Assembly (NCBI GenBank): GCA_030622125.1
Contig: JAUXGM010000127.1
Span: 1-6,450 of the forward strand
Source of the DNA: a bacterium
GTDB taxonomy: Bacteria > AUK180
Direction of reading: 5' to 3'
DNA length: 6,450 nt
The position numbers and the translations under genes were made by a program. The notes below the pieces were generated by a model. It made no database searches. It saw only the letters and a list, made by a program, of their open reading frames with translations, and had not been told where the DNA came from. Below, piece after piece: positions 589 to 6,001 of this stretch; position 1 is the first letter of the stretch; every line of letters begins with the position of its first letter.

Positions 589-604
589 ACAAAATTGGCA
601 ATTT

Positions 605-609
605 GGAGG
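605..609 (+). promoter_or_regulatory. Ribosome binding site of the ATPase gene
   Basis: GGAGG lies 5 bases before ATG 615. It selects this start over the in-frame TTG at 603, which lies upstream of the site itself. Confidence 0.8.
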
Positions 610-614
610 CTGCT

Positions 615-1544
615 ATGATTAAGGTAGAAAACCTAACAAAAAGGTTTGGAAAGTTAGTTGCAGTTGATAATATTTCATTTGAAATTGAAAGAGGAGAGAT
701 AGTTGGTTTTTTAGGTCCGAATGGCGCCGGCAAAACGACAACGCTGCGTATGCTTACCGGTTATTATGAGCCCAGCGGCGGCAGTATCAGGATAGATGAT
801 ATTGATATTATTACCGATCCGATCTCAGCAAAGAAAAAAATCGGATATCTTCCGGAAAATGCACCACTTTATGGGGATATGACGGTAGAGGAATTTTTGA
901 CTCTCGCTGCCGACATAAGAGAACTAAAAAATAAAAGGGCAAGAATAAAAGAGATTATTAATATAACGGGATTGAATGAAGTTTACAACCGTTTTATATG
1001 GGAGTTGTCAAAGGGATATCATCAAAGGGTTGGAATTGCTCATGCACTTTTAAGCGATCCCGATTTCCTTATTTTGGATGAACCGACAGCAGGCTTGGAT
1101 CCGAATCAAATAGTGGAAATCCGTTCTCTTATAAAAGAACTCGGCAAGAGTAAAACAATTCTTTTATCAACTCATATCCTTCAGGAAGCGGAAGCAATCG
1201 CAGATAAGGTGATCATAATAGATAAAGCAAAGATCATTGCAAAAGGCAATAAGGATGAACTCAAGGATCTTCTTCAATCTCAAAATAATATCCTGATTAC
1301 TGCAAGAAAAAACAAGAAATTTATAAAGGATATAGAAAAAATTGACGGTGTTTTGGAATGCAAGATAGAATCATCGGATAAGAATTATGATCATTTGAAG
1401 ATCTATTCAAAAAGAGATGTTGTAGAAGATATCTTTAAATCAGCGGTAAATACAGATACCGTTTTAAGGGAACTTTCTACCGAAGCGGTTTCACTTGAAG
1501 ATGTCTTTATTAAACTAACAGGTAAGGAGGTTGGCAATGAATAA
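615..1544 (+). CDS. ABC transporter ATP-binding protein, GldA-like
   Basis: This is a 309-residue cytoplasmic ATPase that should power the permease encoded next. Visible motifs, numbered from ATG 615, are Walker A GPNGAGKT (34-41), the signature LSKGYHQRV (131-139), Walker B FLILDEP (151-157), the D-loop GLDP (160-163) and the switch histidine H187. The Q-loop position reads YLPEN with glutamate (E81) instead of glutamine, and the signature is LSKGY rather than LSGGQ. Both are usual for the GldA/ABC-2 branch. About 85 residues after the ATPase core form the C-terminal extension typical of ABC-2 ATPases and end in SLEDVFIKLTG. The last codons overlap the permease start by 8 bases, implying coupled translation. 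The family assignment is firm. The substrate is unknown, and gliding motility should not be assumed, since homologues occur in non-gliding bacteria. Confidence 0.93.
   Translation: MIKVENLTKRFGKLVAVDNISFEIERGEIVGFLGPNGAGKTTTLRMLTGYYEPSGGSIRIDDIDIITDPISAKKKIGYLPENAPLYGDMTVEEFLTLAADIRELKNKRARIKEIINITGLNEVYNRFIWELSKGYHQRVGIAHALLSDPDFLILDEPTAGLDPNQIVEIRSLIKELGKSKTILLSTHILQEAEAIADKVIIIDKAKIIAKGNKDELKDLLQSQNNILITARKNKKFIKDIEKIDGVLECKIESSDKNYDHLKIYSKRDVVEDIFKSAVNTDTVLRELSTEAVSLEDVFIKLTGKEVGNE
1524..1530 (+). promoter_or_regulatory. Ribosome binding site of the permease gene
   Basis: AAGGAGG lies inside the ATPase gene, 6 bases before ATG 1537. It favours that ATG over the in-frame TTG at 1531, which would touch the site. 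Confidence 0.8.
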
Positions 1545-2247
1545 ATATAAATACATATTGAAAAGAGAACTCGAAGGTTACTTTAATTCAATGATCGCCT
1601 ATATCTTTATTACCATTTTTCTTATCCTGGAGAATTTCTTTTTCTTCAGAACCTTTTTTATAAACGGTTCATTGACAATGAGGTCTTTTTTTGAGATAAC
1701 TCCGTGGATATTTTTGTTTTTTATTCCGAGCATTACAATGAGATTGTGGGCTGAAGAAAAAAAGACAGGTACTAACGAACTCCTTTTTACAATGCCCATT
1801 TCAGAATGGGATATTGTGATCGGGAAGTTTTTCGGTGCCCTGATATTTATAGCAATTGCAATCTTACTTACGATAAATATTCCAATAACACTTTTAATAT
1901 TGGGAAATGCAGATATAGGACCGATTATCGGAGGTTATCTTGGACTTGTGTTTGTTGCCGCAGCATTTATTTCAGTTGGACTTTTTGCATCAACTACAAC
2001 AGCAAATCAGATAATAGCATACATTGTCGGTGCAGTAATATGTTTCTTGTTTTTTATGCTCGGGCAGCAGTTCATAATCTTTAATCTCTCCGCTTCAATA
2101 GCAAAAATGTTTACATTTTTAAGTATTTCCACTCATTTTGCCTCAATATCAAGAGGGGTGTTGGATTTCATTGATATCGTTTACTATATTGGATTTACAA
2201 GTATTTTTTTGTGGTTGGGATATATTATGATCAAAAAGAGAGTATAG
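1537..2247 (+). CDS. ABC-2 type permease, GldF-like
   Basis: This 236-residue inner-membrane protein is the likely channel subunit of the transporter energised by the upstream ATPase. About six hydrophobic segments are visible, near residues 20-40, 52-70, 97-122, 131-152, 157-182 and 214-232. Between segments two and three lies the family's cytoplasmic motif, W71-AEEKKTGTNELLFTMPIS, which resembles the W-EE-(K/R)-(K/R)-GT-E-L-P pattern of GldF-type ABC-2 permeases and is probably the coupling region that contacts the ATPase. The length is normal for the family. The start at 1537 is set by AAGGAGG six bases upstream, and the gene overlaps the ATPase gene by 8 bases (ATGAATAA). It ends 9 bases before the next gene, whose ribosome site AGGAG overlaps this stop codon. 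Half-transporters of this size normally act as dimers. The substrate is not evident. Confidence 0.92.
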   Translation: MNKYKYILKRELEGYFNSMIAYIFITIFLILENFFFFRTFFINGSLTMRSFFEITPWIFLFFIPSITMRLWAEEKKTGTNELLFTMPISEWDIVIGKFFGALIFIAIAILLTINIPITLLILGNADIGPIIGGYLGLVFVAAAFISVGLFASTTTANQIIAYIVGAVICFLFFMLGQQFIIFNLSASIAKMFTFLSISTHFASISRGVLDFIDIVYYIGFTSIFLWLGYIMIKKRV

Positions 2248-2256
2248 GAGTGAGAT

Positions 2257-3825
2257 ATGAAAGGTAAAAAGAATATATTTATTGAATTTGCGTTTGTTAT
2301 TGTGATCGTTGTTCTTATCAATTTGATATTCGGACAATTGATGATTAGATTCGACTTAACAAAAAATAGCCGTTATACACTTTCGAAAAGTACAAAGACA
2401 ATATTAAACGACCTGAATAATGATATCTATGTGGAATTTTATGTATCAAAAAATCTCCCCTCTTACATTATCAATCTGAAAAAGGAAATATGGGATGTGT
2501 TAAATGAATATAAAATCCATTCTAAAAACAGAATACATATAAAGGAAATTGATCCGTCAAAAAATCCAGACCTTGCAAGAAGGCTGTATATGTATGGAAT
2601 TAAACCCGTTAGCATTAACGCATATCAGAAAGATAGAGCAGAGGTAATAAGCACCTATATTGGAATTGCCGCATTTTATAAGGACAAAGTAGAATCTATA
2701 CCATTTATTCAGGATGCCGGTGATCTTGAATATAAATTTTCATCGTTGGTTATGAAGTTGACCGCAAAAAAGATCCCAATAATCGGATATCCTTCCGTAG
2801 GCAGTGAAATTAATATTGCGAAAGAGTCAACCCTTCTGTTGGACTCATTAGGGAAACAGTATAAGGTTATTCCTGTAAATTTGGAAAAAGAGGATTCATT
2901 AAAAAATATTGATCTCTTGATCGTGCCCAATTACAAGGTCAATCTTAGTGATAAGGCACTTTATAATTTGGACCAATTCATTATAAAAGGTGGTAAGACA
3001 TCGTTTTTTGTAAGCGGTGTAAATATTGATTTTCAAAGGGAGAGTAAGGTAAATCATTCGAACATAATCGATTTTCTAAAAAGTAAATCTATAACCGTAA
3101 ACAATGATCTTGTAAATGATTTTTCAAATAACATGATCGGATTTTCAGCAGGGCAGCGTCAGCTTATTGCACCGTATCCGCTTTTTATTAAGGTGCTGAA
3201 TAAAAATATGAATCCGAAATTTTCGTTCTTAAAGAAAATCCCAAGTGTTGATATCGGTTGGGTCTCGTCATTGTTTTTTTCAACTTCGGCGGATTGTGGT
3301 TTTGATATTATTATGAAATCATCAGTGAAAGCATGGTTAAGTAAGAACTATTTTAACATAGATCCGACGACCATTAAACCGCCGAAAGATAAAACTTTTC
3401 TTGGTCAATTCATATTAGCAGGGATTGAATATGGGAAATTTTCTTCATATTTTAAAAAGGAGTCACTGCCCGATGATATTGATGCCAATGATTTTCAGGA
3501 AAAAAGTACCGTATCAAATAAGATATTTGCTATTGGAACTTCCCATATCCTAAGGGATGATATTCAACGGCGATTCCCAAATACAAAAATATTTATATTA
3601 AATTTTTTTGATAATCTTTTACTTGGTGATAAACTTTCAAATATAAGGACAAAATCAATTAGAGATCCATCTGTAAAACCCTTATCGGATGATATAAAAG
3701 CTCTAATTAAGATTTTAAATTATATTTTTATGCCCATAATCGTTATTTTGTTCGGGCTATTTAGATATTTAAAAAGAAAAAGACGAGGAAGAGCAAAAGT
3801 GGAGGCGAAAAATGAAACAGTATAA
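2257..3825 (+). CDS. GldG-like ABC transporter auxiliary protein
   Basis: This 522-residue protein has one membrane segment at each end (about 7-30 and 488-505) and a large domain between them expected outside the cytoplasmic membrane. The motif R31-FDLTKNSRYTLSKST just after the first segment is the hallmark of the GldG/ABC-transporter auxiliary family. Other family-like stretches are DLLIVPNYK (219-227), LDQFIIKGGK (238-247), NKIFAIGTSHIL (421-432, where many relatives read GDSDF) and a late LSNIRTKS block (460-467) before the C-terminal anchor, which ends in a basic KRKRRGR tail. Length and topology are typical. AGGAG (2246-2250) sits 6 bases before the ATG. The gene overlaps the DUF4340 gene by 14 bases. 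Members of this family accompany GldA/GldF-type subunits and are thought to assist the transporter in the periplasm. The biochemical role is not established. Confidence 0.9.
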   Translation: MKGKKNIFIEFAFVIVIVVLINLIFGQLMIRFDLTKNSRYTLSKSTKTILNDLNNDIYVEFYVSKNLPSYIINLKKEIWDVLNEYKIHSKNRIHIKEIDPSKNPDLARRLYMYGIKPVSINAYQKDRAEVISTYIGIAAFYKDKVESIPFIQDAGDLEYKFSSLVMKLTAKKIPIIGYPSVGSEINIAKESTLLLDSLGKQYKVIPVNLEKEDSLKNIDLLIVPNYKVNLSDKALYNLDQFIIKGGKTSFFVSGVNIDFQRESKVNHSNIIDFLKSKSITVNNDLVNDFSNNMIGFSAGQRQLIAPYPLFIKVLNKNMNPKFSFLKKIPSVDIGWVSSLFFSTSADCGFDIIMKSSVKAWLSKNYFNIDPTTIKPPKDKTFLGQFILAGIEYGKFSSYFKKESLPDDIDANDFQEKSTVSNKIFAIGTSHILRDDIQRRFPNTKIFILNFFDNLLLGDKLSNIRTKSIRDPSVKPLSDDIKALIKILNYIFMPIIVILFGLFRYLKRKRRGRAKVEAKNETV

Positions 3826-4792
3826 AAATTATATAATTGTAGCGGCATCTTTATTGATCATCTATCTTTTATTGGTAATACCGCCGATTTTTTCCAAAAA
3901 AGATCTACCGAAATTGATGTTTCCAACCCTAAATTCTGATATCATAACAAAGATAGTTATTGAACATCCGAATAAAGAAAAGGTTGACATAGTCAAAAAA
4001 GAGAGTGATTGGGAAATAGAGATCAATAAGAACTACTATGAGATAGATCCGGGAAAACAGGAAGGCGTTTTAAAATTAATTACGGATCTGACCTCCGATC
4101 GCAAGGTAACTAAGAATATGAAAGAACTTTCTACCTATTCCTTAACAGATACAACGGCACATAAGATCAATGTTTATGTAAAGGATGAATTATTTGCCAC
4201 GATCCTTGTCGGAAAGTCCGCGAGGGATTTCCGAAGCACATTCTTTAAACTTGATCAGGAAAAAGTTGTAAGATTATCTTCCGAAACCTTGATATCAAAG
4301 ATCAGAGGTAATTCAAAAAATTGGATGGATCATAAGATATTCGAGGTCAATTCTGCGGATGTAGAGGAAATTAAATTACCGCAGGTTCACCTTATAAAAA
4401 AGAAAGATACAAGATGGTACTATGCAGATAGCGATAAGATAAAGGTTGACGAGCAAAAGGTTACCGGTTATCTTAATATTTTTTCCGCTTTTCGAACAAA
4501 TGATTTCGAACTTGAAAAAAACGAGAAAGAATGCGGACTTGAAAAAGGAGAACCGATTATTACCCTTAAAACGATAGATGGAATTTCGTACAATATCATT
4601 AGAGGAAATGAGGATAAAAAGAATACCTATATAAAGGCATTTATAAATGGTAAACCATTACCTTTAATTTACAAGTTCACTACGAACAGGGTAAAAGGAC
4701 TTATAAAGAAACCGGAGCACTTTATACTTGAACAACTTGATTCCACAGATGTTGATGTAAGAATAAAAAAGAGGAAAAAGCCCAATAAATAA
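3812..4792 (+). CDS. DUF4340 domain-containing membrane-anchored protein
   Basis: This 326-residue protein has an uncleaved N-terminal membrane anchor (about residues 7-27) and a hydrophilic remainder expected in the periplasm. The pattern ILVGKSARDFRSTFFKLDQEK (131-151) followed by VVRLSS, and NWMDHKIFEVNSADVEEI (170-187), matches the beta-rich repeats of DUF4340 proteins. These are commonly encoded directly after GldG-like genes. That position, together with the 14-base overlap with the preceding gene, argues that it is a fourth subunit of the same envelope complex. The ATG at 3812 has GGAGG (3801-3805) 6 bases upstream, inside the GldG-like gene. The C-terminus is strongly basic (KKRKKPNK). 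No catalytic motif is visible and the molecular function is unknown. Confidence 0.85.
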   Translation: MKQYKNYIIVAASLLIIYLLLVIPPIFSKKDLPKLMFPTLNSDIITKIVIEHPNKEKVDIVKKESDWEIEINKNYYEIDPGKQEGVLKLITDLTSDRKVTKNMKELSTYSLTDTTAHKINVYVKDELFATILVGKSARDFRSTFFKLDQEKVVRLSSETLISKIRGNSKNWMDHKIFEVNSADVEEIKLPQVHLIKKKDTRWYYADSDKIKVDEQKVTGYLNIFSAFRTNDFELEKNEKECGLEKGEPIITLKTIDGISYNIIRGNEDKKNTYIKAFINGKPLPLIYKFTTNRVKGLIKKPEHFILEQLDSTDVDVRIKKRKKPNK

Positions 4793-5485
4793 ATGGATCT
4801 TTTTATTCCTTCTGCCGGTCTTGGGAAACGACTAAGACCAATTACTAATTATATTCCGAAGCCGCTCATAAAAATTAGGGGTGAAGAAAATCTTTTAAGG
4901 ATCATTAAGAAATTCAAAAAGGTTGATACTATTATTGTAAATGTCTCATATCTCGGCGATAAGATCATAAATTTTTTAAGATTGCAGAAATTAAAGAATT
5001 TATCCATTTATAAAGAAACGGAACCTCTTGGAGTAATCGGTGGATTATACAATGCATTTTCAGTAATGAAGAGAAATGATATATTTGTCCATAACAGTGA
5101 TATTTATTTTGATGGGGGTATTGATACAATTCTAAAAAGTGGTGGTGATCTCGTTTTAGGGCTTGTTAAAAATGGAACCCGAGATGTTCTTGTTAACGAT
5201 AATGGAGAAATTATTAAGATAGCAAATTATTCTTTCAATAACGGTAAGGGATCAAAATGGTACGGTTATAGTGGAATAATGTTAATCAGAAGGAGAGTGC
5301 TTCGGTTTTTTAGTGATTTCCATAAAAGAGGAAAGTATTTAACCTTTATAAATGATTTTATAAAGATATTAAATGAGAAAAAAATGAACATAACAGGGGT
5401 GGTTCTGTCCGGTGTATGGTCTGATTTCGGCAGCATAGATAAATTAGATAATTTCAGAAATTTTGAAAAAACTATTGACAAATAA
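4793..5485 (+). CDS. Sugar-phosphate nucleotidyltransferase, MurU/GMP-pyrophosphorylase-like
   Basis: This 230-residue cytoplasmic enzyme of the NTP_transferase family should join a sugar 1-phosphate to an NTP, giving an NDP-sugar and pyrophosphate. Visible signatures are the nucleotide-binding loop SAGLGKRLRP (7-16), PKPL (22-25), IIVNVSYLGDKI (48-59), PLGVIGGL (78-85), the metal-binding aspartate in NSD (D103) and WSDFGS (209-214), equivalent to the W-x-D-x-G-T motif. The short length without a left-handed beta-helix or acyltransferase domain fits MurU-like MurNAc-1-phosphate uridylyltransferases or small mannose-1-phosphate guanylyltransferases, and sequence alone does not decide between them. 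The start codon abuts the DUF4340 stop (TAA-ATG). The nearest purine-rich site, GAGG at 4771-4774, is 18 bases away, so translation probably depends on coupling. The gene is not a usual partner of Gld-like transporters. Confidence 0.85.
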   Translation: MDLFIPSAGLGKRLRPITNYIPKPLIKIRGEENLLRIIKKFKKVDTIIVNVSYLGDKIINFLRLQKLKNLSIYKETEPLGVIGGLYNAFSVMKRNDIFVHNSDIYFDGGIDTILKSGGDLVLGLVKNGTRDVLVNDNGEIIKIANYSFNNGKGSKWYGYSGIMLIRRRVLRFFSDFHKRGKYLTFINDFIKILNEKKMNITGVVLSGVWSDFGSIDKLDNFRNFEKTIDK

Positions 5486-5502
5486 AAAATATTTGATATA
5501 AT
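5475..5502 (+). promoter_or_regulatory. Consensus promoter of the tRNA cluster
   Basis: A perfect -35 box TTGACA (5475-5480) and a perfect -10 box TATAAT (5497-5502) are spaced by 16 bases. TG at 5494-5495 adds an extended -10 (TGnTATAAT). The -35 box overlaps the last codons of the nucleotidyltransferase gene, and AAATTTTGAAAAAA just upstream resembles an UP element. Transcription should begin near 5509, about a dozen bases before tRNA-Lys. The A-rich sequence after the -10 lacks the GC-rich discriminator of stringently controlled stable-RNA promoters. Confidence 0.85.
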
Positions 5503-5520: not shown

Positions 5521-5593
5521 GGGCCGCTAGCTCAGTTGGTAGAGCAACGCCCTTTTAAGGCGTGGGTCGAAGGTTCGAATCCTTTGCGGCTCA
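5521..5593 (+). tRNA. tRNA-Lys (anticodon TTT)
   Basis: This 73-base cloverleaf has acceptor arms GGGCCGC (5521-5527) and GCGGCTC (5586-5592) with one G-T pair and discriminator A5593. The D arm is GCTC-AGTTGGTA-GAGC. The anticodon stem ACGCC/GGCGT encloses loop CTTTTAA, giving anticodon TTT. The T arm is GAAGG-TTCGAAT-CCTTT. CCA is not encoded (TAG follows), so a CCA-adding enzyme is needed. It is the first gene of the cluster. Confidence 0.97.
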
Positions 5594-5602
5594 TAGTATA
5601 GT

Positions 5603-5674
5603 GTCCCCATCGTCTAGGGGTTAGGACACCGGGTTTTCAACCCGGCAGCAGGGGTTCAATTCCCCTTGGGGACA
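5603..5674 (+). tRNA. tRNA-Glu (anticodon TTC)
   Basis: This 72-base cloverleaf has acceptor arms GTCCCCA (5603-5609) and TGGGGAC (5667-5673), with discriminator A5674. The anticodon stem CCGGG/CCCGG encloses loop TTTTCAA, giving anticodon TTC. The T arm is AGGGG-TTCAATT-CCCCT. The D arm (GTCTAGGGGTTAGGAC) closely matches bacterial tRNA-Glu. CCA is not encoded. It lies 9 bases after tRNA-Lys and 27 bases before the start of the small protein gene. Confidence 0.97.
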
Positions 5675-5690
5675 CTTTTATTTATTATAA

Positions 5691-5700
5691 AAGGAAAAGG
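5691..5700 (+). promoter_or_regulatory. Ribosome binding site of the small intercalated gene
   Basis: AAGGAAAAGG contains an AAGG core (5691-5694) 7 bases before ATG 5702. It supports this start over the in-frame TTG at 5666, which lies within the tRNA-Glu gene. Confidence 0.6.
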
Positions 5701-5701
5701 T

Positions 5702-5938
5702 ATGAAAAAAGAAGAGTTCGATACGATTTATGAAGATGTTCTGGCAGCAGCATTAAAGTTAATGTATTTAATGAGACAGGATAAAAAATTTAACATTGAT
5801 ACATCTAAAAAAAACTACTACAAACTTGTTTTAGAAGAGTTAAAGACAGAAGGAGTGATTAAAACTCCTGATAAAGAAGCGATCAACGAATTATACAAAA
5901 GAAAAGAAAAAGAAGAAGATATTAATTTGGGGGATTAG
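5702..5938 (+). CDS. Small charged helical protein of unknown function
   Basis: I do not recognise this 78-residue protein. It is rich in Lys and Glu with roughly balanced charge, has no signal peptide or membrane segment, has no cysteine or histidine, and should be mostly alpha-helical. A short hydrophobic stretch, VLAAALKLMYLM (13-24), would give an amphipathic helix, and the tail KRKEKEEDINLGD is very charged. The start is ATG 5702, chosen for its ribosome site. An in-frame TTG at 5666 lies inside tRNA-Glu and is unlikely. The gene lies between tRNA-Glu and tRNA-Ala on the same strand with no promoter of its own that I can see, so it should be transcribed from the tRNA promoter. Its last ten bases, including stop codon TAG 5936-5938, belong to the tRNA-Ala gene. 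That it is a real gene is likely from start context and composition, but unproven. Confidence 0.7.
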   Translation: MKKEEFDTIYEDVLAAALKLMYLMRQDKKFNIDTSKKNYYKLVLEELKTEGVIKTPDKEAINELYKRKEKEEDINLGD

Positions 5939-6001
5939 CTCAGTTGGGAGAGCGCTTCCTTGGCGTGGAAGAGGTCAGGGGTTCGATTCCCCTATTCTCC
6001 A
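5929..6001 (+). tRNA. tRNA-Ala (anticodon GGC)
   Basis: This 73-base cloverleaf has acceptor arms GGGGGAT (5929-5935) and ATTCTCC (5994-6000), with discriminator A6001. Pairs 3-70 and 5-68 are G-T, and G3:U70 is the established alanine identity element. The D arm is GCTC-AGTTGGGA-GAGC. The anticodon stem CTTCC/GGAAG encloses loop TTGGCGT, giving anticodon GGC. The T arm is AGGGG-TTCGATT-CCCCT. CCA is not encoded. Its first ten bases overlap the end of the small protein gene, and its 3' end is 2 bases from the stop codon of the convergent antiporter gene. No terminator hairpin follows it. Confidence 0.97.

Follow-up and report, generated by a model that had tools for sequence, protein, structure and literature searches.

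A small protein gene conserved in a bacterial family lies within a tRNA operon and ends, in one species, on the TAG of the following tRNA-Ala

Introduction

Mixed operons in which tRNAs and an mRNA are transcribed together are known in bacteria, for example thrU-tyrU-glyT-thrT-tufB of Escherichia coli. The locus described here resembles this type, in that a protein gene probably shares its transcript with tRNAs and is freed when these are processed. It differs from it in three respects: the open reading frame (ORF) lies between tRNAs, the small protein that it encodes is an orphan, and the codon that ends the frame is located inside the tRNA that follows.

The second system that invites comparison is the human mitochondrion, where non-stop mRNAs arise in the course of tRNA punctuation and some coding sequences have an in-frame stop codon that is formed together with the flanking tRNA (PMC9674279). 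The likeness is that tRNAs flank coding sequences, messages are released by RNase P and RNase Z, and non-stop transcripts result, the latter by inference at the present locus. Unlike the mitochondrial case, this is a bacterial operon in which the stop codon is encoded in the primary transcript, no stop-completing polyadenylation is known, and tmRNA is available for rescue. A search of part of the literature returned no bacterial report of a coding sequence whose stop codon is supplied by a tRNA.

The DNA analysed (the window) is a stretch of 6,450 nucleotides, positions 1 to 6,450 of contig JAUXGM010000127.1 in assembly GCA_030622125.1.

Results and discussion

The tRNA cluster and a putative promoter

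Three tRNA genes are found on the forward strand near the end of the window, tRNA-Lys(TTT) at 5521-5593, tRNA-Glu(TTC) at 5603-5674 and tRNA-Ala(GGC) at 5929-6001, all of them scoring above the Rfam gathering score with 64-70 bits. Rfam places the start of tRNA-Ala at G5929, whereas ARAGORN includes one base more. With the Rfam boundary, RNase P would cleave between 5928 and 5929. The ORF of interest, on the same strand at 5702-5938, occupies the space between tRNA-Glu and tRNA-Ala.

A consensus scan revealed a promoter-like element ahead of the cluster at 5475-5502 (forward strand), consisting of TTGACA and TATAAT separated by 16 nucleotides. It matches the consensus at 12 of 12 positions and has a TG before the second hexamer, with a chance expectation of two such sites in the region. 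A TTGAC(A/T) ... TATAAT-like element is also kept ahead of tRNA-Lys in the relatives, and the same scan gave no further promoter-like site between the tRNAs. Because of this consensus match and the short gaps, 9 nt between tRNA-Lys and tRNA-Glu and 27 nt between tRNA-Glu and the ORF, a single transcript covering tRNA-Lys, tRNA-Glu, the ORF and tRNA-Ala is likely.

The 27-nt gap carries the sequence AAGGAAAAGG at 5691-5700 (forward strand), which reads as a ribosome-binding site. The last base of tRNA-Glu is A5674 and no CCA is encoded. An earlier note on this DNA had proposed that 3' processing of tRNA-Glu would free the message at about 5675, and this fits the boundary. The resulting 27-nt leader would hold AAGGA six bases before the ATG at 5702, which is a normal distance.

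Further upstream, at 603-5485, the window contains an operon-like run of genes. Read by eye, their translations resemble an ABC transporter ATPase and permease, two gliding or ABC auxiliary proteins and a nucleotidyltransferase.

A family-conserved protein gene between tRNA-Glu and tRNA-Ala

The frame is open from the ATG at 5702 to the TAG at 5936-5938 and encodes 78 amino acids. The protein is single-copy in its own genome. Orthologues were found in all four other genomes of the family examined (E 8.2e-24, 2.1e-23, 2.6e-21 and 5.8e-12), and the order Lys(TTT)-Glu(TTC)-ORF-Ala(GGC), on the same strand and with short gaps, is kept in five of five family genomes. Since two of the five belong to one genus and are nearly identical here, they represent four genera, including that of the window. 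Conservation of the frame in relatives, to which the earlier note had tied its reading as a gene, is thereby established within the family.

The orthologues are 37–55% identical to the window protein and share 23 invariant residues, the last of which is Y65; beyond this residue the C-terminal tail is unconserved in the comparison of five orthologues. Over the 78 codons, differences from the window gene fall mostly on the third position (41–51), with 26–33 on the first and 19–25 on the second; dS is saturated in these comparisons. The closest pair of orthologues gave dN 0.016 and dS 0.10, values with few changes underlying them. A synonymous-site bias, the absence of which the earlier note had named as evidence against a gene, is thus present as third-position-biased divergence. 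Because the orthologues occupy the same place and diverge with this bias, we judge that ORF 5702-5938 is a genuine protein gene, conserved in the family, and not a chance ORF.

Its distribution appears to be narrow. A profile of the five orthologues matched nothing at E ≤ 0.01 in two sister-family genomes; at both sister-family loci examined tRNA-Lys and tRNA-Glu are present, with no such ORF behind tRNA-Glu. Across 386 genomes the same profile gave just two weak matches outside the family, at E 0.005 and E 0.009; one of the two contains internal stops. Only the four relatives, all of them metagenome-assembled genomes, came up when genome contigs were scanned.

What the protein may be

Homology searches with the ORF protein returned nothing above the Pfam cut-offs (best DUF6429, E 0.01), no NCBIfam match, no credible sequence match among solved structures and no match in viral contigs. 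An AlphaFold model predicts three helices (pLDDT 75, pTM 0.60); Foldseek with this model found nothing significant.

One lead concerned the omega subunit of RNA polymerase. On this reading, which we consider unlikely, the ORF would encode a strongly diverged omega, relocated to the tRNA operon from gmk-rpoZ-coaBC. The omega family PF01192 scores above cut-off in 14 of 14 control genomes and in none of seven genomes of the phylum (G000-G006), in which a 24-sequence omega profile likewise detected none. In addition, coaBC directly follows gmk in the five family genomes and in G005, that is, in all phylum genomes readable there, while omega adjoins gmk in 11 of 30 other loci. The absences weigh less, however, given that, in a wider sample with five phylum members, 21 of 69 good-quality genomes also go without a PF01192 hit. 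When the window model was compared with VIA-align, four of the six matches with Z ≥ 2 were to chain E of RNA polymerase structures, omega by the usual naming (Z 2.7–3.6). The best of these was 6j9e_E (Z 3.6, rmsd 3.3, 54 aligned residues), but all Z values of the comparison were low, and no omega match came up when the most diverged orthologue was modelled. At the sequence level a full omega HMM ranked the window ORF as the best non-omega small ORF of the controls, with a marginal 4.7 bits. Against this, the profile-profile comparison did not rise above shuffles and the ORF was not among the hits of a genome-wide omega profile; neither PF01192 nor the omega sequence profiles identified it as omega. 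Candidates that the omega profile did raise in phylum genomes looked like chance matches, two of them inside frames resembling ribosomal protein L1. It is very improbable that the whole chain holds, namely a diverged omega now lodged between tRNA-Glu and tRNA-Ala, with synthesis of the subunit tied to tRNA expression and its termination in the window species competing with RNase P.

As a separate observation, the omega gene of a distant genome (L157) precedes, on the same strand, a cluster of tRNAs for Thr, Tyr, Gly, Thr and Trp.

The stop codon within tRNA-Ala

The junction carries the tail codons AAT (5924), TTG (5927-5929), GGG, GAT and TAG, and the TAG at 5936-5938 (forward strand) is T8-A9-G10 of tRNA-Ala. 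The last residues of the protein, LGD, are therefore encoded wholly or partly in tRNA sequence. The letters and the Rfam tRNA boundaries agree with the earlier note that the frame is closed by bases 8-10 of tRNA-Ala, and the codon positions agree that RNase P cleavage after 5928 would interrupt the TTG codon and separate the frame from its stop.

The overlap is peculiar to the window species among the five family genomes examined. In the four relatives the stop codon is TAA and ends before G1 of tRNA-Ala, by 1 nt at L002 and L003, 3 nt at L004 and 6 nt at L005. Conservation of the overlap, unlike that of the gene, thus fails at all four orthologous loci. The tail in the window (KRKEKEEDINLGD) is unconserved; compared with L002 the frame can be aligned as far as GAA GAA GA and is then followed by small changes at the stop. 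After the position of the stop in L002, the next in-frame stop in the window is the TAG of the tRNA. That the window lineage lost the upstream stop is the simpler reading, though not a proven one. The overlap could also be ancestral and have been lost in the other members of the family, as the tree of gmk and coaBC does not fix where the family is rooted. Folding of the junction between ORF and tRNA in its context gave nothing special (z -0.15).

Overlaps of this kind elsewhere in the lineage

Among 34 distinct tRNAs examined in the window genome, 24 carry TAG at bases 8-10. An ORF that enters a tRNA in that frame meets this TAG, so that the arrival of the present ORF at T8-A9-G10 is unremarkable. 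Several of the 40 tRNAs in this genome are preceded by a same-strand coding sequence ending within about 11 nt, with stops 4 to 11 nt before the tRNA.

A second overlap was found in the same genome. A 175-amino-acid Sm_multidrug_ex coding sequence (PF06695, E 1.8e-34), located at 1564-2091 of L087 (G000:C4, reverse strand), ends on the TAG at bases 8-10 of tRNA-Pro(CGG), just as the ORF does on tRNA-Ala. The two cases differ in their conservation: the tRNA-Pro overlap is kept, with the same TAG, in five of five family genomes (relatives' loci L108-L111), and the tRNA-Ala overlap occurs in one species. This makes the tRNA-Pro overlap the more interesting of the two. In the phylum genome G006 the Sm_multidrug_ex orthologue stops just upstream of tRNA-Pro. 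In another, G005, a GHMP-kinase coding sequence, IspE-like, at 652-1521 of L056 (G005:C124, forward strand) runs 21 nt into tRNA-Gln(TTG) and has its stop in the D-loop region. Judged from the assembled genomes, overlap between coding sequences and tRNAs is a recurring habit of the lineage.

Proposed processing, and alternative readings of the overlap

We propose that tRNA-Lys, tRNA-Glu, the ORF and tRNA-Ala form one operon, probably transcribed as one molecule from the strong promoter ahead of tRNA-Lys. Processing of the 3' end of tRNA-Glu and RNase P cleavage at tRNA-Ala would excise the intervening message, in the manner of tRNA punctuation. In the window species, where the upstream stop of the relatives is missing, the near-universal U8-A9-G10 would close the frame. 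A ribosome at this stop would have to open the acceptor stem, which RNase P needs in its folded form. One molecule would then yield either the complete protein, if read before the RNase P cut, or mature tRNA-Ala together with a 5' fragment that lacks a stop codon and would be dealt with by tmRNA. Cleavage by RNase P in the relatives would give a message that extends 1–6 nt past the stop, so that the steric conflict would remain without the stop being lost. tmRNA is present in five of five family genomes, and the window genome encodes its own tag, AEDNFALAA. It is plausible that non-stop fragments are a by-product in the window species; as the 'constitutive tmRNA substrate' of the earlier note, the message is possible in that species only.

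The earlier note had gone further and suggested that the overlap might couple protein output to maturation of tRNA-Ala. A functional switch, in which RNase P and full translation compete, so that protein output is coupled to tRNA maturation or the protein is fed to tmRNA, would make use of a geometry that renders the full protein and tRNA-Ala exclusive on one molecule, in a genome that has tmRNA. A terminating ribosome may still hinder RNase P in the relatives, whose stops are so close to G1, and the analogous tRNA-Pro overlap has been kept in five genomes. The overlap is nevertheless found in none of the orthologues of the ORF, and coupling through it cannot for that reason be the conserved function of the gene. 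Since the overlap itself is not conserved, and with the C-terminal tail unconserved as well, we regard such a switch as quite unlikely. About equally hard to credit is a sequencing or assembly artefact, whereby an indel in the A-rich tail would mask an ordinary TAA like those with which the relatives end the frame just ahead of the tRNA. A TAA does lie in another frame at 5923-5925, at the position of the relatives' stop, and the assembly is a draft of 192 contigs; yet the frame up to GAA GAA GA can be aligned with L002 and L003 without an indel, and the occurrence of the tRNA-Pro overlap, in an unrelated gene, in five separate genomes shows that overlaps of this type do exist here.

That the overlap is tolerated rather than functional is the most likely reading, because the tail of the protein is unconserved. 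The occurrence of the same overlap in an unrelated gene, Sm_multidrug_ex, in the same genomes also speaks for tolerance and not for a device special to this ORF. Taken as a whole, the account of a family-restricted gene in a mixed tRNA-mRNA operon, with an overlap that is tolerated and not a conserved switch, is one that we hold to be probable.

Significance

The locus is an example, from an uncultured phylum, of a conserved protein gene lodged in a tRNA operon. Gene finders that forbid overlap between coding sequences and tRNAs may mis-trim genes of this kind. A gene that precedes a tRNA can take its stop codon from the near-universal U8-A9-G10, an arrangement that in one case is stable in five genomes, and we infer that the lineage tolerates coding sequences whose stops are supplied in this way. 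The tRNA-Pro case would offer a clean natural test of whether cleavage by RNase P makes non-stop messages in bacteria.
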